This document shows, in pieces, positions 1,571 through 28,341 of a DNA stretch of 28,341 nucleotides. The DNA lies in IMG/VR virus record IMGVR_UViG_3300030012_001857, positions 1 to 28,341 of that record. One strand, given 5' to 3'. Made by a program: the position numbers and the translations under genes. The DNA is from a virus. The notes beneath the pieces are model-generated. The model did not search any database. It was not told the DNA's origin and saw nothing but the letters and a program-made list of their open reading frames with translations. Position 1 is the stretch's first letter, and every line of letters begins with the position of its first letter.

Positions 1571-2983
1571 GTGTTACTATTGTGTTATATGCAAAATGTA
1601 GTATTTGAACCTCATCCCGGTCCTCAAACAGAGGCATTACAACGATCAGAGAAAGAAATACTTTATGGTGGTGCAAGAGGGGGCGGTAAATCTACTGCTA
1701 TGACTGCTTGGATGGTCGAACCTCATTATATTGAAAATCCTTTATATCGGGGCCTCGTTATCAGAAGAAACTATACTGACCTAAGAGACTGGATTGATAA
1801 TGCTAGGCATATGTGGCGGTATCTTGATGTTAAGGTAGTTGGTAATCCAGCAGAATTTAGATTTCCTAGTGGTGCTAAAATAAGAACTGGTCACCTTTCT
1901 GATGAGAATAGCTGGTCTGCATTCCTAGGACACGAATACCATAAAATGGGAATTGAGGAGCTTACTCTAATTGATACTGAGGAAAAGTATTTAAGGCTTA
2001 TATCTTCAGCTCGAACAACCGTACCAGAGTTACAAGTTCAAATCTTTTGTACAACTAATCCGGGTGGACCCGGTCACCATTGGGTAAGAAGTCGTTGGAT
2101 TGATACTGCCTATAACAAAACATATCAAGATGATAGAGGTAACACTAGAATATTTATACCTAGTCGAATCTATGACAACCCTACTCTTATGGAAGTAGAC
2201 CCCGGATATTTAGATATGTTAGAATCATTACCAGATGAATTAAGAAGTGCTTGGTTAGAGGGTTCGTGGGATACGTTTGCTGGCCAGTATTTTAAAGATT
2301 TTAACAGAGATGTACACGTATTAGAGCCTTTTAAAATACCAGAGGGTTGGAGAAGATACAGATGTATTGACTATGGTTATACAAACTACTTTGCTTGTAT
2401 TTGGGCAGCAGTGGATTATGATGGTAATGTATTTATTTACAGAGAACATTATGAAAAAGAAAAACATTTAGACTATCACATAGCTCGAATACTTGAGCTC
2501 TCTGGTGATGAAGATATTTATCTAACTATTGGCGATCCAGCTATGTGGATTAGAAACCCTCAGAACACTAACAGAAGTGATGAGAAACTGCCTAGTATGC
2601 TCTCTATAGCCGATATAATGCTTATGAAAGGTATACCTATAGTTAAAGCAAATAATGACCGTATAAACGGTTGGAATAATATGCGTGAGTATTTGCACTG
2701 GGATGGTGATGTTCATCGTAAAATAATTAAAAAGCGGCCCAAACTATTCATATTTGAAAATTGCGAGAACTGGATTAGAACTATCCCAAGTTTAAGTCAC
2801 GATAAATTTAGAGTAGAAGACGTAGATACGAAGATGGAAGACCATTTGGCTGATACCACTCGCTATCTATTGTTTCATATTGGTAGACCAGATAAACCAT
2901 TGCCAGCTAAGAGCTGGGTTATTCGTGAGCTCGAATCTTTGGAAAAGATGGATGTAGGAAATGAACTTACGATCAGAAATTAA
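1571..2983 (+). CDS. Terminase large subunit (DNA packaging ATPase and nuclease)
   Basis: This is the motor that drives DNA into the prohead and cuts it. The N-terminal ATPase domain has Walker A GGARGGGKST (residues 33-42), a Walker B-like MGIEEL (126-131, acidic pair Glu129-Glu130) and the coupling motif CTTNPGG (160-166). The C-terminal RNase H-like nuclease has Asp267 in RCIDYGY, Asp322 in IGDPAMW, and DHLADTTRYLLF near residues 424-435, the usual last acidic motif. At 470 residues it is normal in size. The GTG at 1571 has a GGAT 4 nt upstream; an ATG at 1589 would remove six residues and may be the real start. It opens the late gene block, directly after a structured gene-free region. 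Confidence 0.93.
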   Translation: MLLLCYMQNVVFEPHPGPQTEALQRSEKEILYGGARGGGKSTAMTAWMVEPHYIENPLYRGLVIRRNYTDLRDWIDNARHMWRYLDVKVVGNPAEFRFPSGAKIRTGHLSDENSWSAFLGHEYHKMGIEELTLIDTEEKYLRLISSARTTVPELQVQIFCTTNPGGPGHHWVRSRWIDTAYNKTYQDDRGNTRIFIPSRIYDNPTLMEVDPGYLDMLESLPDELRSAWLEGSWDTFAGQYFKDFNRDVHVLEPFKIPEGWRRYRCIDYGYTNYFACIWAAVDYDGNVFIYREHYEKEKHLDYHIARILELSGDEDIYLTIGDPAMWIRNPQNTNRSDEKLPSMLSIADIMLMKGIPIVKANNDRINGWNNMREYLHWDGDVHRKIIKKRPKLFIFENCENWIRTIPSLSHDKFRVEDVDTKMEDHLADTTRYLLFHIGRPDKPLPAKSWVIRELESLEKMDVGNELTIRN

Positions 2984-13643: not shown

Positions 13644-14879
13644 ATGACTAGAGAAGAGAGACAAGAGCAAGCTTTAACACTTAAAATGCAGATGAATCTG
13701 ATGATTGCTGCTCTAAATAATTCTGTTGATGCTGAAGATTCCAACAAGTTGTTATCTGCCTTTCAAACAAAATTAGAGTCACTAGAAGATGAGATTGCAT
13801 CAACTAATGATTTATTAAAGGATTTTAAAGATCGCAGAAAAAAATTAAACGATAGGATTCTAGAGGTAAACAAGAAACAAGAATCAATATCTGATAAAGT
13901 TTATCTTGAAAGAGGTGGCAAATATTATAGAAGAAAAATTAATCCAGATAAAGTAAGAATATTTTTTGAAGATGAAGAAGTCAAAAGAAGTGGCTCTCAA
14001 AGTGGAAGTAGAACCAATATAGATTTTGGTGGTACAAATACAACTGGCAATAAAAGAGTAAAACAAATGGTTAGAACACCAATTGATGATAGCTTAATAG
14101 AAATACCAAAGGAAGTCTATGATGTATATGCGAGTCAAAGAGAATCATATAGAGCTGAATTAGAGGAGCTGCAAATAGAACTTAATGGTGTAAATCAAAA
14201 CTATGTTGCAATGCTAGACAAATATAAACCAAAAAAAGAAATTGTAGTTGGCAAAGACAAAAAGGGTAAAGATATAAAAAAATTTATTAGAGGAGATAGC
14301 CAAGACATACTGGATACAAAATTTCAAATTGATGTGCTTAAAGAACAGATAGCAAATCAAGAAATATATTTACAAGTGTATCAAGATAATAGAGCTAGTT
14401 ACGATGGTATAAAATACTCTAAAGAATTGAAACAGTATATGCCAGTAAGCTATAATAAATATCAAGATGTATATGGTGGTAAAGAGCCAGTATATGAGGC
14501 ACCATCAATGCCGGAAATGAAAACTTATCAGCCGCAGACTAGAGCAATACCAACTAAGAAAGCTTGGTGGTCAGACACTAGAAAGAAAAGTATTGATGAC
14601 GAACTACTGTCAGATTTTACATCTGGTTATATGTTTACTGGTATTGCAGCACCACAACAAAGAACAACTCAACCTACGATGACTCAACCTAATCAACCTT
14701 TAAATACTTTCTCAAAGATTGCACCAGTACAACAACCAAATGTGCAAAGAGATATGCAATCTCAAGTAAAAGACCAACTGCAACCAAAAAATCAAAATAT
14801 GAATCCGGCTGGTTTTAACATAAAGAACTTTATACAAAAGTATGCAGTTCCTTATAAAATAAAGAATCAAAATAAGTAA
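13644..14879 (+). CDS. Internal virion (ejection) protein, medium, coiled-coil
   Basis: A 411-residue protein dominated by coiled coil: residues 1-85 (LESLEDEIASTNDLLKDF and following) and about 160-255 (YRAELEELQIELNGVNQNYV). The C-terminal 110 residues are Gln/Pro/Thr/Asn-rich and likely disordered, with repeats such as QPTMTQPNQP. Lysine is abundant. It starts two bases after the previous stop. Position and helical character fit the middle ejection protein of a podovirus. No enzymatic motif is seen. Confidence 0.6.
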   Translation: MTREERQEQALTLKMQMNLMIAALNNSVDAEDSNKLLSAFQTKLESLEDEIASTNDLLKDFKDRRKKLNDRILEVNKKQESISDKVYLERGGKYYRRKINPDKVRIFFEDEEVKRSGSQSGSRTNIDFGGTNTTGNKRVKQMVRTPIDDSLIEIPKEVYDVYASQRESYRAELEELQIELNGVNQNYVAMLDKYKPKKEIVVGKDKKGKDIKKFIRGDSQDILDTKFQIDVLKEQIANQEIYLQVYQDNRASYDGIKYSKELKQYMPVSYNKYQDVYGGKEPVYEAPSMPEMKTYQPQTRAIPTKKAWWSDTRKKSIDDELLSDFTSGYMFTGIAAPQQRTTQPTMTQPNQPLNTFSKIAPVQQPNVQRDMQSQVKDQLQPKNQNMNPAGFNIKNFIQKYAVPYKIKNQNK

Positions 14880-17800
14880 TGAGTATAGGTGACGTAAAAA
14901 GAGCACTATCTGGGGAGAGCACAAATAATCCCAATGCTAATTTATATAGGTATGGGAAGACATCAGCTAGTGACCTACAAATTCAAGAAATAGATGGTAT
15001 ATTTAATAAAATACATCAGAATATAAATCTTGATGCAAGGGAGCTACAGTTACTACCAGATGAGTACGCTAAAGACCTTATACTACGTTACAGACAAAAC
15101 AAAGGTTCTTACCTTGGTGATGATCGTGCAAAGATTTTAACACCGGCTTTTGAGGGTATTGCTAGAAGACACGCTCTTAGAAAGGTCCAGAAAACTGACG
15201 AAGTAAAACAAATTGCTGGCATAAAAAATGATTTAGGTAAATACTTACAAGATGTATATGAGTTTACAGACCCAATATCGTCTGACCCAGCATTTGACCA
15301 AGTAGAGGCTGGTAAGTATAAAAAGGCTAATGCAGAAAACTTATTAGAAAATGTACCACTTTTAAAAACAAGATTTCCGGAAGAACGAGTAGACCAAGTT
15401 GTAAAGAAGTTTACTGACATAGAAAGTGATAAATATGGTCTAGCCAATGGAGATGATGCCTTTGGTTATTTACTTACTGACGGTGGCACAAATTTTGAAA
15501 TGGATGTTGTAGATGCTATTCTTTCTAGGCACCCAGAAGATTCACATTTAAATAACTTTGCTTGGTTATCTGGTATACACGGATTTAATTATTTATCGGA
15601 TATAACTACAACTATAGAGCGTTTAGACCAAGAGGGTGAAGAATATTTACTTTCTGCTCAAGGTGTAAAAGATGTAAATAAGATAGTACGTTTTATAGAC
15701 TTTTATCAGTCCGAAAAATCATTTGGCTATCAACTAACTGAGTCTATTATTGATTTAGCTCAGATGTTTATTACTAGAGCATCAACTAAAAAATTTGATA
15801 AAGCACTAGCTGAACGAGTTAGTGGCTATATGCAAAATTCTGTAACAAAAGCTCTCGGTAAAAAATTTAGAGATAAGCTAGCAAAGGTAAATCCACTACT
15901 TAAAAAAACTGTTAAAACTGCCGCTGAAGAGGCAAAGCTAGCTTTACATCCACTTGGTTATGGTACGGATACTTTAGAAAGAACAATGCAATACAAAGCG
16001 TTTGATCGTGAGTTTGTTGCATTAGAAGTAGAAGATGGCCAGTTCTTAGGTATGAATTTTCTAGAACCTAGAGAAACAATGACCGCATTTTATAGTGCGT
16101 TTGGAAATCAATATGTTGAAAATATATCAGAAAGATTAGGTGGGGCATTTAATCGGATTGGTGGAGCACTAAGTGAAAATGAAGTTACTGGTCAATTTTT
16201 AAATACTGCATTATTTAAAGCATTTAAAAATGTCAACCCACAAATAACAGACAACGCTCTCACTGAATTTATTAAACTATCAAAGTTTCAAGGTATAATA
16301 CCAGAGATGTTAGAGGAAAGAGCAACAAGCGTTATGCAAGGAGCTCTTGGACTTGACCAACCCGGACAAGATTATGACCCTTTATTTTTTATGACAAATG
16401 AAGAGGGTGAGCAAGAATTTAAATTTAAAGATATTGTAATACCATCTGCTGAAGAATTTGGTGTTGAGTTCTTTACAATACTAGCTGGTGTAGGATTATC
16501 TAGAGGTGCTGAGGCTTTATCGCCAGATGGCATAGGACCTATAGTATATAAAAAACCAGACGTTGTAGTCAAAGGTTCAGACCCAAGCGTAAGAGAGTTT
16601 GTATCAGCTTGGAAAGATAGAAATCTAAATGTCATAGACACTGTTATGGCAGTTGCAAATGAAAGACTTGAGAGAAGTGGTAAGAAACCACTAAAGTATA
16701 GAAACTCTAGTAAAGTAGATAGTAGGTATTTACAGAAAGCTAAAGAACAAGGTGCAGATGTATTAGTACCAGAACTAAAAGAATTTATATCTAACCCAGA
16801 TAACGCTGAATTAATTGATTATGCAGTAAACTGGTACGGTAGTAATTACAATCAAGCAATTGTAAACCTACAACAAAATTATTTCCCAGAGTTAGAAAAC
16901 CCAGACCAAAGGTCACTGTTTGATGCAATAGTTGCATTTACTAGCCTTAGAAGTGCTCCAGAGAAAAATATGCGTAATGCTATAAATGAGTATATGAGGG
17001 TTGGTGGTGCTGATTTTGACCAAAAGGTAACGAATCAGATTACTAAAAACATTGGCATTTTTCAAAAGATTGCAGAGCACAAAGGTGGATATGCTGGAGC
17101 TATGGATTTTCTAGGTCAACAAATGACTGGTCAAGATTTACGTGATGAGCTTTTTAAAATGGGTTTATATACAAATACTATAAAAGGTAAAACTGGTAAA
17201 GACGGCAAAACAAAGATATCCGGTCAATTACCTAATAGTATAAAATTAAACGATATGACATATGCAGCAGAAATATTTGGGCCCAAGATAGGAACATTTA
17301 TGTTAAATCTATCTGGAATAGATAATGTAGCTACTATTGACTTATGGATGGTAAGACAAATAAGTACTGCTTTAGGTGACCCTTTTACAGAAACAACTTT
17401 AAAACAAGCCAACTTTAAACTCAGAAGAGCTATAGAAAAAGGTGCAAAAGAAAAGATAGGTGAGACTAAAAGAGGTAAAGATATTTATGAGTATTCACCG
17501 GGGTGGACTGGTTCTGACTGGAGCGATGGTCTGGAAAGTCAAATTGTTGACAAAGCAGATAGAACTAGAGATAGAATAGTTTTATATAGAGAGGTAGTAA
17601 ACGAAATACAGAGTCAGTTAAATGCTGATTTAGGCACTGATTTTAGTGTTAACCAAGTACAAGCTATGTTATGGTATATGGAAAAAGCCATATTTACTAG
17701 AGCTGGTACCGCTGGTAGTGAGGTAGAATTAGCAGACTATTTGTCGGTTAGCGAAAGTTTTGTAAATTCTGGAGAGGTATTTAATGAAAACACACAGAGA

Positions 17801-20800
17801 CGTATACGATCAGATAAGCAACTTGGGGCAGAACAACGAGCTGAACAAGAGGACCTTAGAAAGTCTGAAGATGATAGCAAAGACGGAGTTCAGAAAAAAG
17901 GAGCCAGTGCTAGGCAGACGGATAGTGAAGACGAACTATCAAGACAGTCAGATAGAAATGTTGGCACAAGCAGTCAAAAAGGAGTATCCAAAAAGCAACC
18001 TAGCCTCCTTAAGAAATCAGTTCCGCAAGTTAGTCGGTTAGCACCGGAAGAATCTGAATTATTTTATAACGCACTAGTAAAGCATCAATCCGAAGATGTC
18101 TTTGGTGCGGCAGTAGAACCACACTCACCAGAATACTGGGCCGGTCCAACCGTAGACAATGAGGACCCAAGTATAACTTATGAGCCAGTAATATTTATGG
18201 ACAACACTAGGACTGCTGGTGTTGCATTAGTAAAGGTAACTAAAGACGGTGAATCTAAGATAGATATACAAGGTGTCTTTAGGAGTGACCAATCTCCTCT
18301 TATTGGTGACGAGTTAATGAGAAAAGCCTTGCGGCAAGCAATAGATATTGTTGGTCCAGATGGTAAGATTACACTAGATGCATTTGCTCCATATCTACCA
18401 AAATGGTATGAGTCATATGGATTTGTAGAAACTGGTAGAGCTGACTGGGATGATAACCTCGCACCTCAAGAGTGGCCATTTCAAAAGTATATGCAAGACT
18501 TTCCAGATATACCAGATGGTAAGCCTCAGATTGTATTTATGGAATGGAATCCATCAAAAGCTGGACCATTATTTAAAAACAAATTAGGACTTCTACAAGA
18601 AACTGTAGTAGACGAACAAACCCCATTAGGGTATATCACTCAGAAGATAAATGATAATTTAACAAGAATTAAAGATGTAGATACTGCAACAGAGAAACAA
18701 AGAGGAGCACCTTTACAAGATAACGAAAGAGTATATAGTCAATCTAGGAGAGCTCCAAACATTGCTATCAATAAAATAGAAAAGGTAATGGACCTTTTAG
18801 AAAATAAAGAGGGTACTGGACTTTTTGATCGTATGTGGAAAGACGGTATTACCCCAGATGATTTATCTGTTTATCTACACGCACTACATACTAGAGAATA
18901 CATTGCTCACGTAAAGAAAACTGCCGGTGGTGATAAAAAACGCAAGGATGCTGGTCTTAATAAACGTGGGGAGTTGATGACCCCAGAGAGAGCTGACGAG
19001 ATTATAGAGCAGTTCAAGGGCACTAAGATGGAAGACTATGCTAAGGAGTTTGATAAAACTATTATAAAAAGAAATGTCAATGTAAGAGAGCAAGGTGGTT
19101 TACTAGATAAAGATACTGCTCAAAGATTTAGAGGGATTGACCCTAATTCTGGTGATGCGAAAAAACAGAAAAAAAATAAAAAGAAAACAATATTTAAAAA
19201 TTATGTACCATTTGAAGTTGAGTTTGAAGATGATGGACAAGTAGGTGGTATACATCAGTATAGCGATGGGACCAGAGGCATCAGTCTATCTGGACCAGAA
19301 AGTAGAGCTATAAAAGGCTCTCAAGATATTTTACAGAGGAAAGACCCGGTGCTTACTGCAATACAGAACCTAAGTCTTGGTATAATGAGAGCAGAACAAA
19401 ATCAAGTCAATCTAAAACTATTAAATCAAATGCGTGCATCTGATATAAAGGTGAAAAATCAAGATGGTGAACTGGTTGACTTATTCGATATTCAAGAAGC
19501 GGTTGTTGATAGCGATGCTAATATATATAATGCTGAGGGTATGCCAATAGGTGTCAGAACTGCTAGTTTAGCTGATAATCAAATATTAATAAAAGAGAAC
19601 GGTGTAGAGTATGTAGTTACTATAAATGACAAAGCATTAGCAGAGTCATTTAGAGCTAAGGAATCTTTCTCCAGAGATAATGTATTTGTAAATGTATTAA
19701 ATACAGTAAACAATTTTCGCAAAGTATATATGACTGCTTACTCTCCTACGTGGTGGGTAGGAAACTTCCAAGCGGATTTACAAAATGCTTTGGTAAATGC
19801 TGGTGTTGAGAATGGTGCATCAATAGCAGTTGATGTAGCAGCTAATTCACTGTCATCTATGAAGTCCATATACAAAGCACAGACCGATCCAAATTATACT
19901 GATGATTTTGTCGAGGCTTATGAAGAGATGAAAGCATACGGTGGTAAAGTTAGTTTTTTTAATCCTAAAGATTTACAAGACAGATTTGGTGATATAGATA
20001 AAAAGCTAGTTAAGATGGCCGCTGGTAAAAGTAAAAGCAGTATGCCTCGACAGATTGTTGATTATGTAAATGTGTTAAATCAAAGTGCTGAAAACGCTAT
20101 GAGGTTAGCAACATATAAAGCTTTTAGAGATGCTGGTATTAGTCCCGAGCAAGCAGCCTTAGCAGCTAGGGATATAACAATTGATTTTAATAAGTCCGGA
20201 CAACTTAGTAGAGGAATAGAGGCAGCCTATATGTTTAGTAAGGTGGGTATCAATTCTATATACAGATTTGGACAAGCAATAAAAAATAATCCAAAAGGGT
20301 CAGCAGCAGCCTCAACTGGCTTATTTGGTTTAGGTATGGGCCTAGCTGCAATGGCAAAAGCTTATGACGAAGAAGAATGGGAAAAGTTAAGTGATTTTGA
20401 AAAGTACCACTATTGGCATATACCAAATATTTTTGCAATGCTGGACACTGCTGAAGATGGTAAAGCAACCATAAATCCACAACCAGATAATCCTATGGGT
20501 TTTATTCCTATAAAAATGCCTTATGGTTGGGGAATGGTTTCTGGTATGGGTGTACTTCTACAAGAGTACAATGACCGAAAATCTAAGTTGCAAGACGATG
20601 AAACATTAGAAGACTTTTGGGGTCCTAAATTGCTTACCCTTGTATCGAATCATTTTTCACCAGCATCTAGCTTTTTACCAACTGGATTTGATATGATTTA
20701 TGAAATGAGTCAAAATAGAGATGGTATTGGTAGGAATATAAAGCCACATAAGTTTGATTTAGATGCTAGTGATTTTGAAACATACTATCCTAATGTTGCA

Positions 20801-21442
20801 CCATATGCAAAAGATTTTGCATTCTTATTAAGTAATTTTCCAATTGGTAGTTTACAACCTACTGGAGAGGTAGACCCTAAAACTGGTAGAGTAAAATATA
20901 AAAATCATAGTGGATTAGATATATCACCGGATGAGCTAGATTATTTATTTGGTCAGTTTTTCGGTGGACTATATAATTCTATGGAGGGCACTGTAAAGCT
21001 ATTAACACCTAATAATTACACTGAGGGTTGGAATAAAATTACAAATGACTACGAGGGTCTGGACCCAAAAAAGAATCCTTTTCTTAAAAAGATATGGACA
21101 TACAAGCCAACTGTTAATGTACAAGATTTAAGATTAAAGCGTGGATTGTATGACAGTAAGAGAAGAAACTTAAATCAATTTGAATTAGAACATATAGAGG
21201 CTGCACTGGACCATTTATTTTCTAACGGCAAGTTAAGTCTACAAGACCATAACAAATATTGGAGAGAAATATTTAGAAATCAAGCCGATCTTACTACAGT
21301 TGTTCCATCAATTAGAGAAGATATTGAAAAATATTATCTAGGAGTAGAAAAGGCAACTGGTAGAAAAGTTCAAGTAAAATTGGATGAGGCCGTAAATAAA
21401 GTCAAAGAAGAAAAAGATATACGTAAATCAATAGAGCGTTGA
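14879..21442 (+). CDS. Giant internal virion protein (2187 residues, large polyvalent protein)
   Basis: This is the largest gene in the window and the third ejection-type protein, starting within the stop of its neighbour (TAATG). Residues 1-600 are mostly helical. Residues about 640-945 contain WYGSNYNQAI, GPKIGTFMLNLSG and TIDLWMVRQIS, then VQAMLWYMEKA; this recalls helix-hairpin-helix glycosylase-like modules in other large phage proteins. Residues 965-1050 are a charged linker. Residues about 1055-1210 look like a GNAT acetyltransferase fold (LPKWYESYGFVETGR). The C-terminal part, from about 1600, has NNFRKVYMTAYSPTWWVGNF and DITIDFNKSGQ, typical of the LPD38-like domain, and a hydrophobic stretch near 1811-1830. 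It is probably packaged and delivered with the DNA. Domain names are by eye. Confidence 0.8.
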   Translation: MSIGDVKRALSGESTNNPNANLYRYGKTSASDLQIQEIDGIFNKIHQNINLDARELQLLPDEYAKDLILRYRQNKGSYLGDDRAKILTPAFEGIARRHALRKVQKTDEVKQIAGIKNDLGKYLQDVYEFTDPISSDPAFDQVEAGKYKKANAENLLENVPLLKTRFPEERVDQVVKKFTDIESDKYGLANGDDAFGYLLTDGGTNFEMDVVDAILSRHPEDSHLNNFAWLSGIHGFNYLSDITTTIERLDQEGEEYLLSAQGVKDVNKIVRFIDFYQSEKSFGYQLTESIIDLAQMFITRASTKKFDKALAERVSGYMQNSVTKALGKKFRDKLAKVNPLLKKTVKTAAEEAKLALHPLGYGTDTLERTMQYKAFDREFVALEVEDGQFLGMNFLEPRETMTAFYSAFGNQYVENISERLGGAFNRIGGALSENEVTGQFLNTALFKAFKNVNPQITDNALTEFIKLSKFQGIIPEMLEERATSVMQGALGLDQPGQDYDPLFFMTNEEGEQEFKFKDIVIPSAEEFGVEFFTILAGVGLSRGAEALSPDGIGPIVYKKPDVVVKGSDPSVREFVSAWKDRNLNVIDTVMAVANERLERSGKKPLKYRNSSKVDSRYLQKAKEQGADVLVPELKEFISNPDNAELIDYAVNWYGSNYNQAIVNLQQNYFPELENPDQRSLFDAIVAFTSLRSAPEKNMRNAINEYMRVGGADFDQKVTNQITKNIGIFQKIAEHKGGYAGAMDFLGQQMTGQDLRDELFKMGLYTNTIKGKTGKDGKTKISGQLPNSIKLNDMTYAAEIFGPKIGTFMLNLSGIDNVATIDLWMVRQISTALGDPFTETTLKQANFKLRRAIEKGAKEKIGETKRGKDIYEYSPGWTGSDWSDGLESQIVDKADRTRDRIVLYREVVNEIQSQLNADLGTDFSVNQVQAMLWYMEKAIFTRAGTAGSEVELADYLSVSESFVNSGEVFNENTQRRIRSDKQLGAEQRAEQEDLRKSEDDSKDGVQKKGASARQTDSEDELSRQSDRNVGTSSQKGVSKKQPSLLKKSVPQVSRLAPEESELFYNALVKHQSEDVFGAAVEPHSPEYWAGPTVDNEDPSITYEPVIFMDNTRTAGVALVKVTKDGESKIDIQGVFRSDQSPLIGDELMRKALRQAIDIVGPDGKITLDAFAPYLPKWYESYGFVETGRADWDDNLAPQEWPFQKYMQDFPDIPDGKPQIVFMEWNPSKAGPLFKNKLGLLQETVVDEQTPLGYITQKINDNLTRIKDVDTATEKQRGAPLQDNERVYSQSRRAPNIAINKIEKVMDLLENKEGTGLFDRMWKDGITPDDLSVYLHALHTREYIAHVKKTAGGDKKRKDAGLNKRGELMTPERADEIIEQFKGTKMEDYAKEFDKTIIKRNVNVREQGGLLDKDTAQRFRGIDPNSGDAKKQKKNKKKTIFKNYVPFEVEFEDDGQVGGIHQYSDGTRGISLSGPESRAIKGSQDILQRKDPVLTAIQNLSLGIMRAEQNQVNLKLLNQMRASDIKVKNQDGELVDLFDIQEAVVDSDANIYNAEGMPIGVRTASLADNQILIKENGVEYVVTINDKALAESFRAKESFSRDNVFVNVLNTVNNFRKVYMTAYSPTWWVGNFQADLQNALVNAGVENGASIAVDVAANSLSSMKSIYKAQTDPNYTDDFVEAYEEMKAYGGKVSFFNPKDLQDRFGDIDKKLVKMAAGKSKSSMPRQIVDYVNVLNQSAENAMRLATYKAFRDAGISPEQAALAARDITIDFNKSGQLSRGIEAAYMFSKVGINSIYRFGQAIKNNPKGSAAASTGLFGLGMGLAAMAKAYDEEEWEKLSDFEKYHYWHIPNIFAMLDTAEDGKATINPQPDNPMGFIPIKMPYGWGMVSGMGVLLQEYNDRKSKLQDDETLEDFWGPKLLTLVSNHFSPASSFLPTGFDMIYEMSQNRDGIGRNIKPHKFDLDASDFETYYPNVAPYAKDFAFLLSNFPIGSLQPTGEVDPKTGRVKYKNHSGLDISPDELDYLFGQFFGGLYNSMEGTVKLLTPNNYTEGWNKITNDYEGLDPKKNPFLKKIWTYKPTVNVQDLRLKRGLYDSKRRNLNQFELEHIEAALDHLFSNGKLSLQDHNKYWREIFRNQADLTTVVPSIREDIEKYYLGVEKATGRKVQVKLDEAVNKVKEEKDIRKSIER
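17784..18041 (+). CDS. Candidate overlapping gene inside the giant protein gene
   Basis: An 85-codon frame, shifted by one base from the host gene, begins with ATG after a strong GGAGAGG at 17771-17777 (6 nt spacing). The product is basic and helical (ESLKMIAKTEFRKKEPVLG, IEMLAQAVKKEYPKSNLASL). It lies exactly where the main frame is a disordered linker rich in Ser, Asp, Gln, Lys and Arg, a region free to tolerate a second frame. It could equally be chance, because such linkers often leave long open frames. Confidence 0.3.
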   Translation: MKTHRDVYDQISNLGQNNELNKRTLESLKMIAKTEFRKKEPVLGRRIVKTNYQDSQIEMLAQAVKKEYPKSNLASLRNQFRKLVG

Positions 21443-26844: not shown

Positions 26845-27015
26845 ATGCTTAAAGAAATGATAGCAGCAGAGCTACTTTCAGATGAAGTCAGAGATGAAAT
26901 CATTGATGGTTGGAACAAATCTGTAGATATACCTCTACTCAGCGAAGCCGTTGAAAGAAAGATTATGTTGGCCATCTGGAACATTGTCAAAGCAGCACTT
27001 GTAAAGAGACTGTAA
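26845..27015 (+). CDS. Very small helical protein before the endolysin (56 residues)
   Basis: ATG at 26845 has a strong AGGAGAATAAG upstream, and the frame runs 56 codons to TAA at 27013-27015, sharing one base with the endolysin ATG. The product (MLKEMIAAELLSDEVRDEII ... MLAIWNIVKAALVKRL) is predicted all-helical and amphipathic. Its signals are as good as those of any gene here. It may help lysis; the family is unknown. Confidence 0.65.
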   Translation: MLKEMIAAELLSDEVRDEIIDGWNKSVDIPLLSEAVERKIMLAIWNIVKAALVKRL

Positions 27016-27434
27016 TGCCAAAGTTTGGTAGACGTTCCAAGAAAAGGTTAAAAGGTGTACACCCAGACCTAGTTAATGTTTTAAATGATGTAATTAAATA
27101 TTATGACATAACTATACTAGAGGGTTTGAGGTCCCAAGACCGACAGATTGATTTATATAATGATGGCAAGTCTAGGCTAGATGGTGTTTATAAAAAGAGC
27201 AAACATCAACTTGGAAAAGCCGTTGATATAAGTCCCTATCCAGTGGACTTTCAAGACACCAAAGGATATATGTATTTAGCTGGCCTAATGATAGCTACTG
27301 CAAAAAAGCTTGGTGTTAAACTTCGCTGGGGCGGTGACTGGAATGGTGACCATAAATTTAGTGGCCGAGCAAATAGTAAACGCACTGACAAGTCCCAGAC
27401 GTTTGATGACCTTGTACATTATGAGGTCAAGTAG
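27015..27434 (+). CDS. Endolysin, M15 family peptidase
   Basis: This 139-residue enzyme cuts the peptide part of peptidoglycan to release progeny. It has the M15 zinc motif SKHQLGKAVD (His64 and Asp71), then LRWGGDWNGDHKF (103-115) and DLVHYEV (132-138, His135), the set expected for the L-alanyl-D-glutamate or D-Ala-D-Ala type M15 peptidases such as the T5 endolysin. It is single-domain, with no cell-wall-binding part or signal peptide, so it needs a holin for release. AAAGAGAC precedes the ATG. It is the last gene of the rightward block and is followed by a terminator. Confidence 0.9.
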   Translation: MPKFGRRSKKRLKGVHPDLVNVLNDVIKYYDITILEGLRSQDRQIDLYNDGKSRLDGVYKKSKHQLGKAVDISPYPVDFQDTKGYMYLAGLMIATAKKLGVKLRWGGDWNGDHKFSGRANSKRTDKSQTFDDLVHYEVK

Positions 27435-27487: not shown

Positions 27488-27515
27488 AAAGGGGAGAATT
27501 AATTTTCTCCCCTTT
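27488..27515. terminator. Convergent intrinsic terminator
   Basis: An 11-bp perfect stem, AAAGGGGAGAA (27488-27498) with TTCTCCCCTTT (27505-27515), encloses the loop TTAATT. On the plus strand only three T residues end the stem. On the minus strand the stem runs into seven T residues in a row (A run at 27484-27490). It sits between the rightward late block and a leftward gene, so it probably stops both. Confidence 0.8.
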
Positions 27516-27526
27516 GCTCTGTAAAA

Positions 27527-27548
27527 GTAGTGGCACAAAATCGCCACA
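27527..27548 (+). repeat. Left pair of 11-bp-phased repeats (putative integrase arm sites)
   Basis: TGGCACA (27531-27537) and CGCCACA (27542-27548) place their CACA exactly 11 bases apart. They match the four repeats at 27726-27769. A further copy in the other orientation (GTGTGTCA) lies near 27560-27567. Confidence 0.55.
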
Positions 27549-27608: not shown

Positions 27609-27647
27609 GCCGAAGTGGTGGAACTGGTAGACACGCAGTCTTGAGGG
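27609..27647 (+). other. 5' half of a tRNA-Leu(GAG) gene (putative attP core)
   Basis: The segment has the start of a leucine tRNA: a 7-base acceptor strand GCCGAAG, TG, a D-stem GTG/CAC with GG in its loop, then the anticodon-stem strand CAGTC and loop TTGAGGG (anticodon GAG). The following bases are AACAA, not the GACTG needed to close the stem. No variable arm, T-arm or acceptor partner follows, so it cannot make a tRNA. A host tRNA fragment ending at the anticodon loop is the usual mark of a tyrosine-integrase attachment site. Confidence 0.7.
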
Positions 27648-27681
27648 AACAACCGAGTAGATTCTCGGTAAGTGTTCCCTC
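27643..27681. other. Long bulged hairpin overlapping the tRNA fragment end
   Basis: GAGGGAACA (27643-27651) and ACCGAG (27652-27657) pair with CTCGGT (27664-27669) and TGTTCCCTC (27673-27681). This makes 15 bp with a 3-nt bulge and a 6-nt loop. The left arm begins inside the anticodon loop. It may be recombinase core-site symmetry or a folded RNA. No T run follows. Confidence 0.55.
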
Positions 27682-27725
27682 GTACTTTGTATCTATTTAT
27701 CATAATTTATCAGTATTAGTAAATA

Positions 27726-27769
27726 GTTGCGACACAATATCGCCACACTGATGGCACACTGGTGACACA
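27726..27769 (+). repeat. Right array of four 11-bp-phased repeats (putative integrase arm sites)
   Basis: CGACACA, CGCCACA, TGGCACA and TGACACA end at 27736, 27747, 27758 and 27769, so each CACA is exactly 11 bases, about one helical turn, from the next. All point the same way. Together with the left pair they flank the tRNA fragment over about 243 bp, similar in extent to a lambda-type attP. Confidence 0.6.
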
Positions 27770-27772
27770 TTA

Positions 27773-28315
27773 TTAATTGCCACCGGTCCATCTAATGTGG
27801 GCAGTACCATTACCTTTCATCCAGTTAACTCGGTACTCAACCATAGAATGATAAACTTGACTATCTTTTGCCGTGTAGCTTACTGGTATTTCAGCAATCA
27901 ATGATGTTGTTGACATCTTCAACTTATTAAAAGCAGTAAGATAACTCTTAACGATTGCAATCATTCGATCTTTATCTTCCTTATTTCTAAGTTCGTGTAT
28001 TCTATGTTCACTATAATTAACTAACTGACCAATCATCAACTTATCTCTAATTTCTTCTTCAGTATATCCCAACTTGGCTGACATTATTTGTACGTAGTTA
28101 CCAGTATCGTCCTTGTACCGAACTTTTATACCGGGTTTTGTTAATGACCAATTAAACTCGATATCAAAGTCAAAAATGATATCGGCTAGATATGGCCCAT
28201 ATGTCGGAGATGATTCTAGTTCAAGGTGTTTGCCTTGGTTCACCATCTCCAAAAGAGCATTTTCACGTTTCAACGATGCAATAAGTTCGTCTTTCGCTTT
28301 CAACAACTCATTCAT
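27773..28315 (-). CDS. Leftward protein of unknown function (180 residues)
   Basis: The protein begins with a coiled coil (MNELLKAKDELIASLKREN, to about residue 34). A mixed alpha/beta body follows (IIFDFDIEFNWSLTKPGIKV, then VQIMSAKLGYTEEEIRD), ending YRVNWMKGNGTAHIRWTGGN. I do not recognise a family; it lacks integrase or repressor motifs. AAAGGAGATGAATAT before the ATG is a strong ribosome-binding site. It is transcribed toward the putative attP and the convergent terminator, and is probably part of an early or lysogeny region outside the window. Confidence 0.75.
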   Translation of the reverse strand: MNELLKAKDELIASLKRENALLEMVNQGKHLELESSPTYGPYLADIIFDFDIEFNWSLTKPGIKVRYKDDTGNYVQIMSAKLGYTEEEIRDKLMIGQLVNYSEHRIHELRNKEDKDRMIAIVKSYLTAFNKLKMSTTSLIAEIPVSYTAKDSQVYHSMVEYRVNWMKGNGTAHIRWTGGN

Positions 28316-28341
28316 ATATTCATCTCCTTTCGGGTTTTGTG

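Follow-up and report, generated by a model that had tools for sequence, protein, structure and literature searches.

The half-tRNA and its bacterial counterparts

Why would a phage genome carry precisely the first half of a leucine tRNA gene? This question is raised by positions 27609-27647 of IMG/VR virus record IMGVR_UViG_3300030012_001857, a linear record of 28,341 bases and 37% GC that we analysed at its full length (hereafter the window). The record carries terminase, portal and endolysin genes and, judged by its gene content, is a fragment. A sequence-only reading had suggested that the half-tRNA is the core of a phage attachment site (attP). Our results indicate, with high confidence, that it serves an uncultured marine phage, tailed and temperate, as its lambda-type attP core. 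The site is very probably a well-supported fresh example of a known but rare kind of attP built on a tRNA 5' half, in a different phage group.

The half reads GCCGAAGTGGTGGAACTGGTAGACACGCAGTCTTGAGGG, is followed by AACAA, and runs from the acceptor 5' strand through the D-arm and the 5' side of the anticodon stem to the end of the anticodon loop (TTGAGGG). Its bases 1-38 match exactly on 15 contigs from 13 bacterial genomes, and on 15 out of these 15 contigs ARAGORN finds an intact 85-base tRNA-Leu with anticodon GAG; base 39 (G) agrees too. Base 40 is A in the window and G in every host, and the identity therefore covers exactly 39 bases. The earlier claims that the first 39 bases are intact, that homology stops right after the anticodon loop, and that a near-identical 5' half should exist in bacteria are thus borne out, the bacterial half being in fact identical. 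An exact 39-base match to a single gene lies far beyond chance. No complete tRNA was found in the window, where the rest of the tRNA-Leu is absent, and an Rfam search of the window gave no match.

Arm-type repeats and integrases in related phages

The half is flanked by GNCACA direct repeats at a spacing of exactly 11 bp, two upstream and four downstream, which are predicted to be integrase arm sites (Table 1). In a scan over all 4-mers, 0 out of 2000 shuffles gave a 4-base repeat statistic as good as that of the window or of the related phage G004, and among periods 7 to 15 the signal appeared at 11 only. The layout of half plus arm repeats is kept in three related phages (L005, L006 and L132). 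In all four phages, window included, P' sites begin at +121/122 and +132/133 relative to the core, while the two upstream repeats are placed at -79/-68 (window), at the nearby -78/-67 (L006) and at about -43/-32 (L005 and L132). The L132 half is a variant with AATTGG and GCTGTC that exactly matches tRNA-Leu in several bacteria, and its neighbours are the same as in the window, with an endolysin before the half and an opposite-strand helix-turn-helix (HTH) protein after it. The half tracks a host gene rather than the phage lineage.

The sequence-only reading had also looked to the parts of the genome outside the window for a tyrosine integrase, and related phages do encode one. It was identified in G004 (PHROG_1, E=1.6e-32; Phage_int_SAM_5 barely past its cut-off), G007 (49% identity) and G514, the contig of L132 (51% identity), with more distant versions in G008, G009 and G011. 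The integrase gene faces away from the terminase gene and lies 5.4 kb upstream of it in G004 and 3.5 kb in G007; since the window begins only 1.6 kb before its own terminase gene, the integrase would fall outside. The second arginine, the GH box and the tyrosine are visible in the G004 and G007 proteins, whereas the family (G004, G007, G008, G009 and G011) lacks the first catalytic arginine and has S or A instead, within TG[LMV][AS]P[IV]DA. A comparison of the integrase with solved structures gave no match. Beside its attP, G004 further carries an excisionase-like HTH gene and a repressor-like gene with an N-terminal HTH_3 domain (6e-8), a relative of the repressor-like fragment at the end of the window.

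G007, a member of the same phage group, has arm-type repeats at the same place (locus L115, 2600-3330) with no tRNA half between them, and the dyad TGCACT-ATCTTTCG-AGTGCA lies in its presumed core. Lacking the half and having a dyad of its own, G007 probably uses a different bacterial attachment site (attB).

Proposed mechanism and its weak points

In the mechanism that we propose, the tyrosine integrase would contact the core and the arm repeats, spaced 11 bp apart on either side of it, and the anticodon loop of tRNA-Leu(GAG) would be where phage and chromosome exchange strands, a crossover position that we infer from where the identity ends. Of the two junctions, one would hold the host's cut-off 5' half beside the phage P' arm and the repressor gene. 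The second would unite the phage 5' half with the host 3' half and restore the original tRNA sequence, which would then follow phage DNA in place of the host neighbour that normally precedes it. Selection for the rebuilding of a functional tRNA is the simplest explanation of the exact identity. It had been anticipated that integration would replace the promoter-side half of the host gene, and this follows from the geometry, as a gene composed of a phage 5' half and a host 3' half is cut from its own upstream DNA. Actual integration and later expression of the tRNA are likewise deduced from sequence. G004 has a partial dyad, TAGACACG-18-CGTGTAGA, centred on the anticodon, which was read by eye and is only suggestive. 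An inverted repeat across the half was considered as well, and reaches 9-10 bp in four attP sites, yet in the window it is at chance level.

Several observations weigh against a working attP. The arm motif was initially spotted by eye, though the shuffle test covers all 4-mers. There is no integrase gene within the window itself, an absence that means nothing in a record that is a fragment. The activity of the relatives' integrase is assumed, its first catalytic arginine being absent; IntDOT of CTnDOT also lacks this arginine, yet is active. Portal searches for lysogens in 130 and 369 genomes, run without a positive control, were empty; genomes with two copies showed no split gene; and among viral contigs no tRNA-Leu of this kind with a phage flank was found. 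The genome collections searched hold one genome per species, in which prophages are easily missed. Finally, no sigma-70-like promoter above chance was detected upstream of the half in the window, where 103 out of 300 shuffles scored equally well. The two-copy genomes had been candidate lysogens, but all of them resembled strain variants or contig ends.

The promoter result also bears on a further claim, namely that the phage would need to restore transcription of the tRNA. This claim found no support in the window; in L006 and in the cyanophage P-SSP7 the promoter signal before the half was only suggestive. Taken as a whole, the attachment-core reading stood, on the strength of the exact match, the arm repeats on both sides, the tyrosine integrase of the relatives and the host-matching variant of L132; its corollaries on transcription and on the naming of the host did not.

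Alternative explanations

In a variant of the attP explanation, compatible with it, the attP would serve transient integration, lysogeny not being usual. We regard this as unlikely. Transient integration has been reported for S-TIP37 and P-SSP7 (PMC8776855), and no prophage of the window's phage group turned up in the portal searches mentioned above. However, this group has a repressor-like gene and an excisionase-like gene next to attP, suggesting regulated lysogeny.

The half could instead be the remnant of a complete phage tRNA-Leu gene that has lost its 3' half and has no role in integration. Whole tRNAs do occur in phages, as in pelagiphage HTVC011P, where a complete tRNA-Leu(UAG) stands beside the integrase gene. 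But decay would scatter differences, whereas the match here has no mismatch and, in phages whose flanks are unrelated, stops at the anticodon loop or just past it; in addition, the arm repeats keep fixed distances, and a relative bears a different variant that matches hosts. We consider a remnant highly improbable. The HTVC011P gene (L066:2996-3080, just behind the integrase gene) is unannotated.

Another highly improbable reading gives the transcribed half a role of its own as RNA, perhaps in decoying tRNA enzymes or within a terminator. A very stable predicted RNA hairpin directly behind the half (window 27642-27682, z score -5.05) speaks for it, but as a conserved element this hairpin had to be rejected, with z scores of about -1 in relatives and no compensatory pairs, and an RNA role leaves the arm repeats unexplained. 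An assembly chimera of a host tRNA with phage DNA, conceivable for a metagenomic fragment since tRNAs are repeats, can practically be dismissed, as phage genes lie on both sides and L005, L006 and L132 from other samples share the layout.

Relation to known attachment sites

The sequence-only reading called the 5'-half polarity unusual; it is indeed rare, yet has precedents in T7-like cyanophages (PMC8776855) and in archaeal pTN3-like integrases (PMC8371274). For T7-like cyanophages, Shitrit and colleagues described 39-bp attP motifs equal to the first half of tRNA-Leu, with integration demonstrated by PCR and no stable lysogens (PMC8776855). P-SSP7 and S-TIP37 thus carry a 39-base first half of tRNA-Leu as the window does (PMC8776855). 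Our own reading of the P-SSP7 half is GGGAGTGTGGCGGAATTGGTAGACGCGCCGGACTTAAAA, just behind the integrase gene (int); its loop reads TTAA, so that its anticodon would be UAA. The window differs from these phages in phage type, host and tRNA-Leu isoacceptor. In its group int lies far from attP, whereas in the cyanophages attP follows int directly and precedes the phage RNA polymerase gene. Unlike these cyanophages, the window's group has repressor-like and excisionase-like genes, and the window lacks the TATAAT that P-SSP7 has at -25. With an endolysin gene to its left and a repressor-like gene to its right, the site may work as in the cyanophages, but we do not class it as a T7-like cyanophage attP.

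The pTN3-like archaeal integrases use a tRNA 5' half, a case seldom met in bacteria (PMC8371274). Their attB is the tRNA 5' half (of tRNA-Leu for pTN3) and the rebuilt tRNA stands behind element DNA, as we propose here; unlike in the window, the integrase is a suicidal archaeal enzyme that splits its own gene, and the tRNA is driven by the int promoter (PMC8371274). Mycobacteriophages such as Boilgate likewise have a common core of 30-45 bp that lies in a tRNA, with arm-type sites and a lambda-like integrase, but their attP retains the 3' half, so that the tRNA keeps its own promoter (PMC10865867).

The 38-mer is also present, identical, in five other viral contigs. Three contigs, L002, L003 and L004, have an identical half in unrelated flanking DNA, and L133 has the same tRNA-Leu(GAG) 5' half with one base changed. 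In all four, unlike in the window, the flanks are different and an integrase open reading frame (ORF) stands directly behind attP; the arm repeats of L002, L003 and L004 are 11-bp-spaced too, but their motif is TGTAGC or TAGC. In L133, the ORFs directly behind the tRNA-Leu 5' part, which reaches the variable arm, form a tandem integrase-like pair (328-2089). The rare polarity, of which T7-like cyanophages and archaeal pTN3-like elements have so far been the main known cases, thus extends to at least two other uncultured marine phage groups. For the window's group, to which none of the annotated phage records searched is closely related, a temperate lifestyle is suggested. It would be tempting to go further and suppose that several unrelated marine phage lineages independently chose the tRNA-Leu 5' half, and that the lysogen's leucine tRNA comes under phage-supplied transcription that controls its level; we think this improbable.

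Candidate hosts

Half-tRNA matches tie phages to candidate hosts, and 39- to 46-bp tRNA-Leu matches have been used for host prediction in marine phage contigs (PMC3861242). For the window it had been expected that a search with the 39 bases would name the host. It does not, as the 39-mer occurs in two phyla: in Gammaproteobacteria (CCA end encoded, GC 42-64%) and in 4 out of 130 genomes of one Marinimicrobia (SAR406) order (no encoded CCA, GC about 31%), one of the four being titled Candidatus Marinimicrobia. A single host was rejected for the same reason in the case of the variant, as both the 38-mer and the L132 variant are found in Gammaproteobacteria and in the Marinimicrobia order. L003 and L133, whose match to Marinimicrobia-type tRNAs reaches into the variable arm, point to Marinimicrobia, and because of this extension they probably infect that order.

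In the bacterial locus L040, the tRNA is preceded by tpiA and secG (gene names by reading), and in several other hosts the end of a secG-like reading frame precedes tRNA-Leu(GAG); some hosts have TATAAT about 24 bases ahead of the tRNA. L035 and L040 come from the same metagenome-assembled genome and each hold a version of the secG-tRNA-Leu(GAG) locus, with different DNA separating secG from the tRNA.

Other features of the window

The endolysin and repressor-like genes frame the putative attP at the right end of the window (Table 1). With the repressor fragment as query, the search for further relatives returned nothing, and a comparison of the window end with phage records gave no match.

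Table 1. Predicted features of the window, in window coordinates
Feature	Position	Strand	Basis or remark
Terminase large subunit	1571..2983	+	gene match; integrase of relatives 3.5-5.4 kb upstream, facing away, outside window
Endolysin gene	27015..27434	+	phrog_465, E=1e-37; left neighbour of attP in related phages too
Terminator-like hairpin behind endolysin gene	27488..27515		hairpin prediction
Arm-type repeat P1 (GTGGCACA)	27530..27537	+	repeat scan
Arm-type repeat P2 (TCGCCACA), 11 bp past P1	27541..27548	+	repeat scan
Putative attP core, identical to tRNA-Leu(GAG) bases 1 (G1) to 39 (last of anticodon loop)	27609..27647	+	match to bacterial genes
Likely crossover (overlap) region, CAGTC + TTGAGGG (anticodon-stem 5' strand and loop)	27636..27647	+	identity ends at 27647; cut sites predicted
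Arm-type repeat P'1 (GCGACACA)	27729..27736	+	distance to core equal (<=1 bp) in L005, L006 and L132
Arm-type repeat P'2 (TCGCCACA)	27740..27747	+	repeat scan
Arm-type repeat P'3 (ATGGCACA)	27751..27758	+	repeat scan
Arm-type repeat P'4 (GTGACACA)	27762..27769	+	repeat scan
Repressor-like protein, C-terminal part, runs off contig	27773..28339	-	57% identity to G004 homologue over 185 shared residues

Among the structural genes, the window also contains a single open reading frame of 2187 amino acids (14879-21442).
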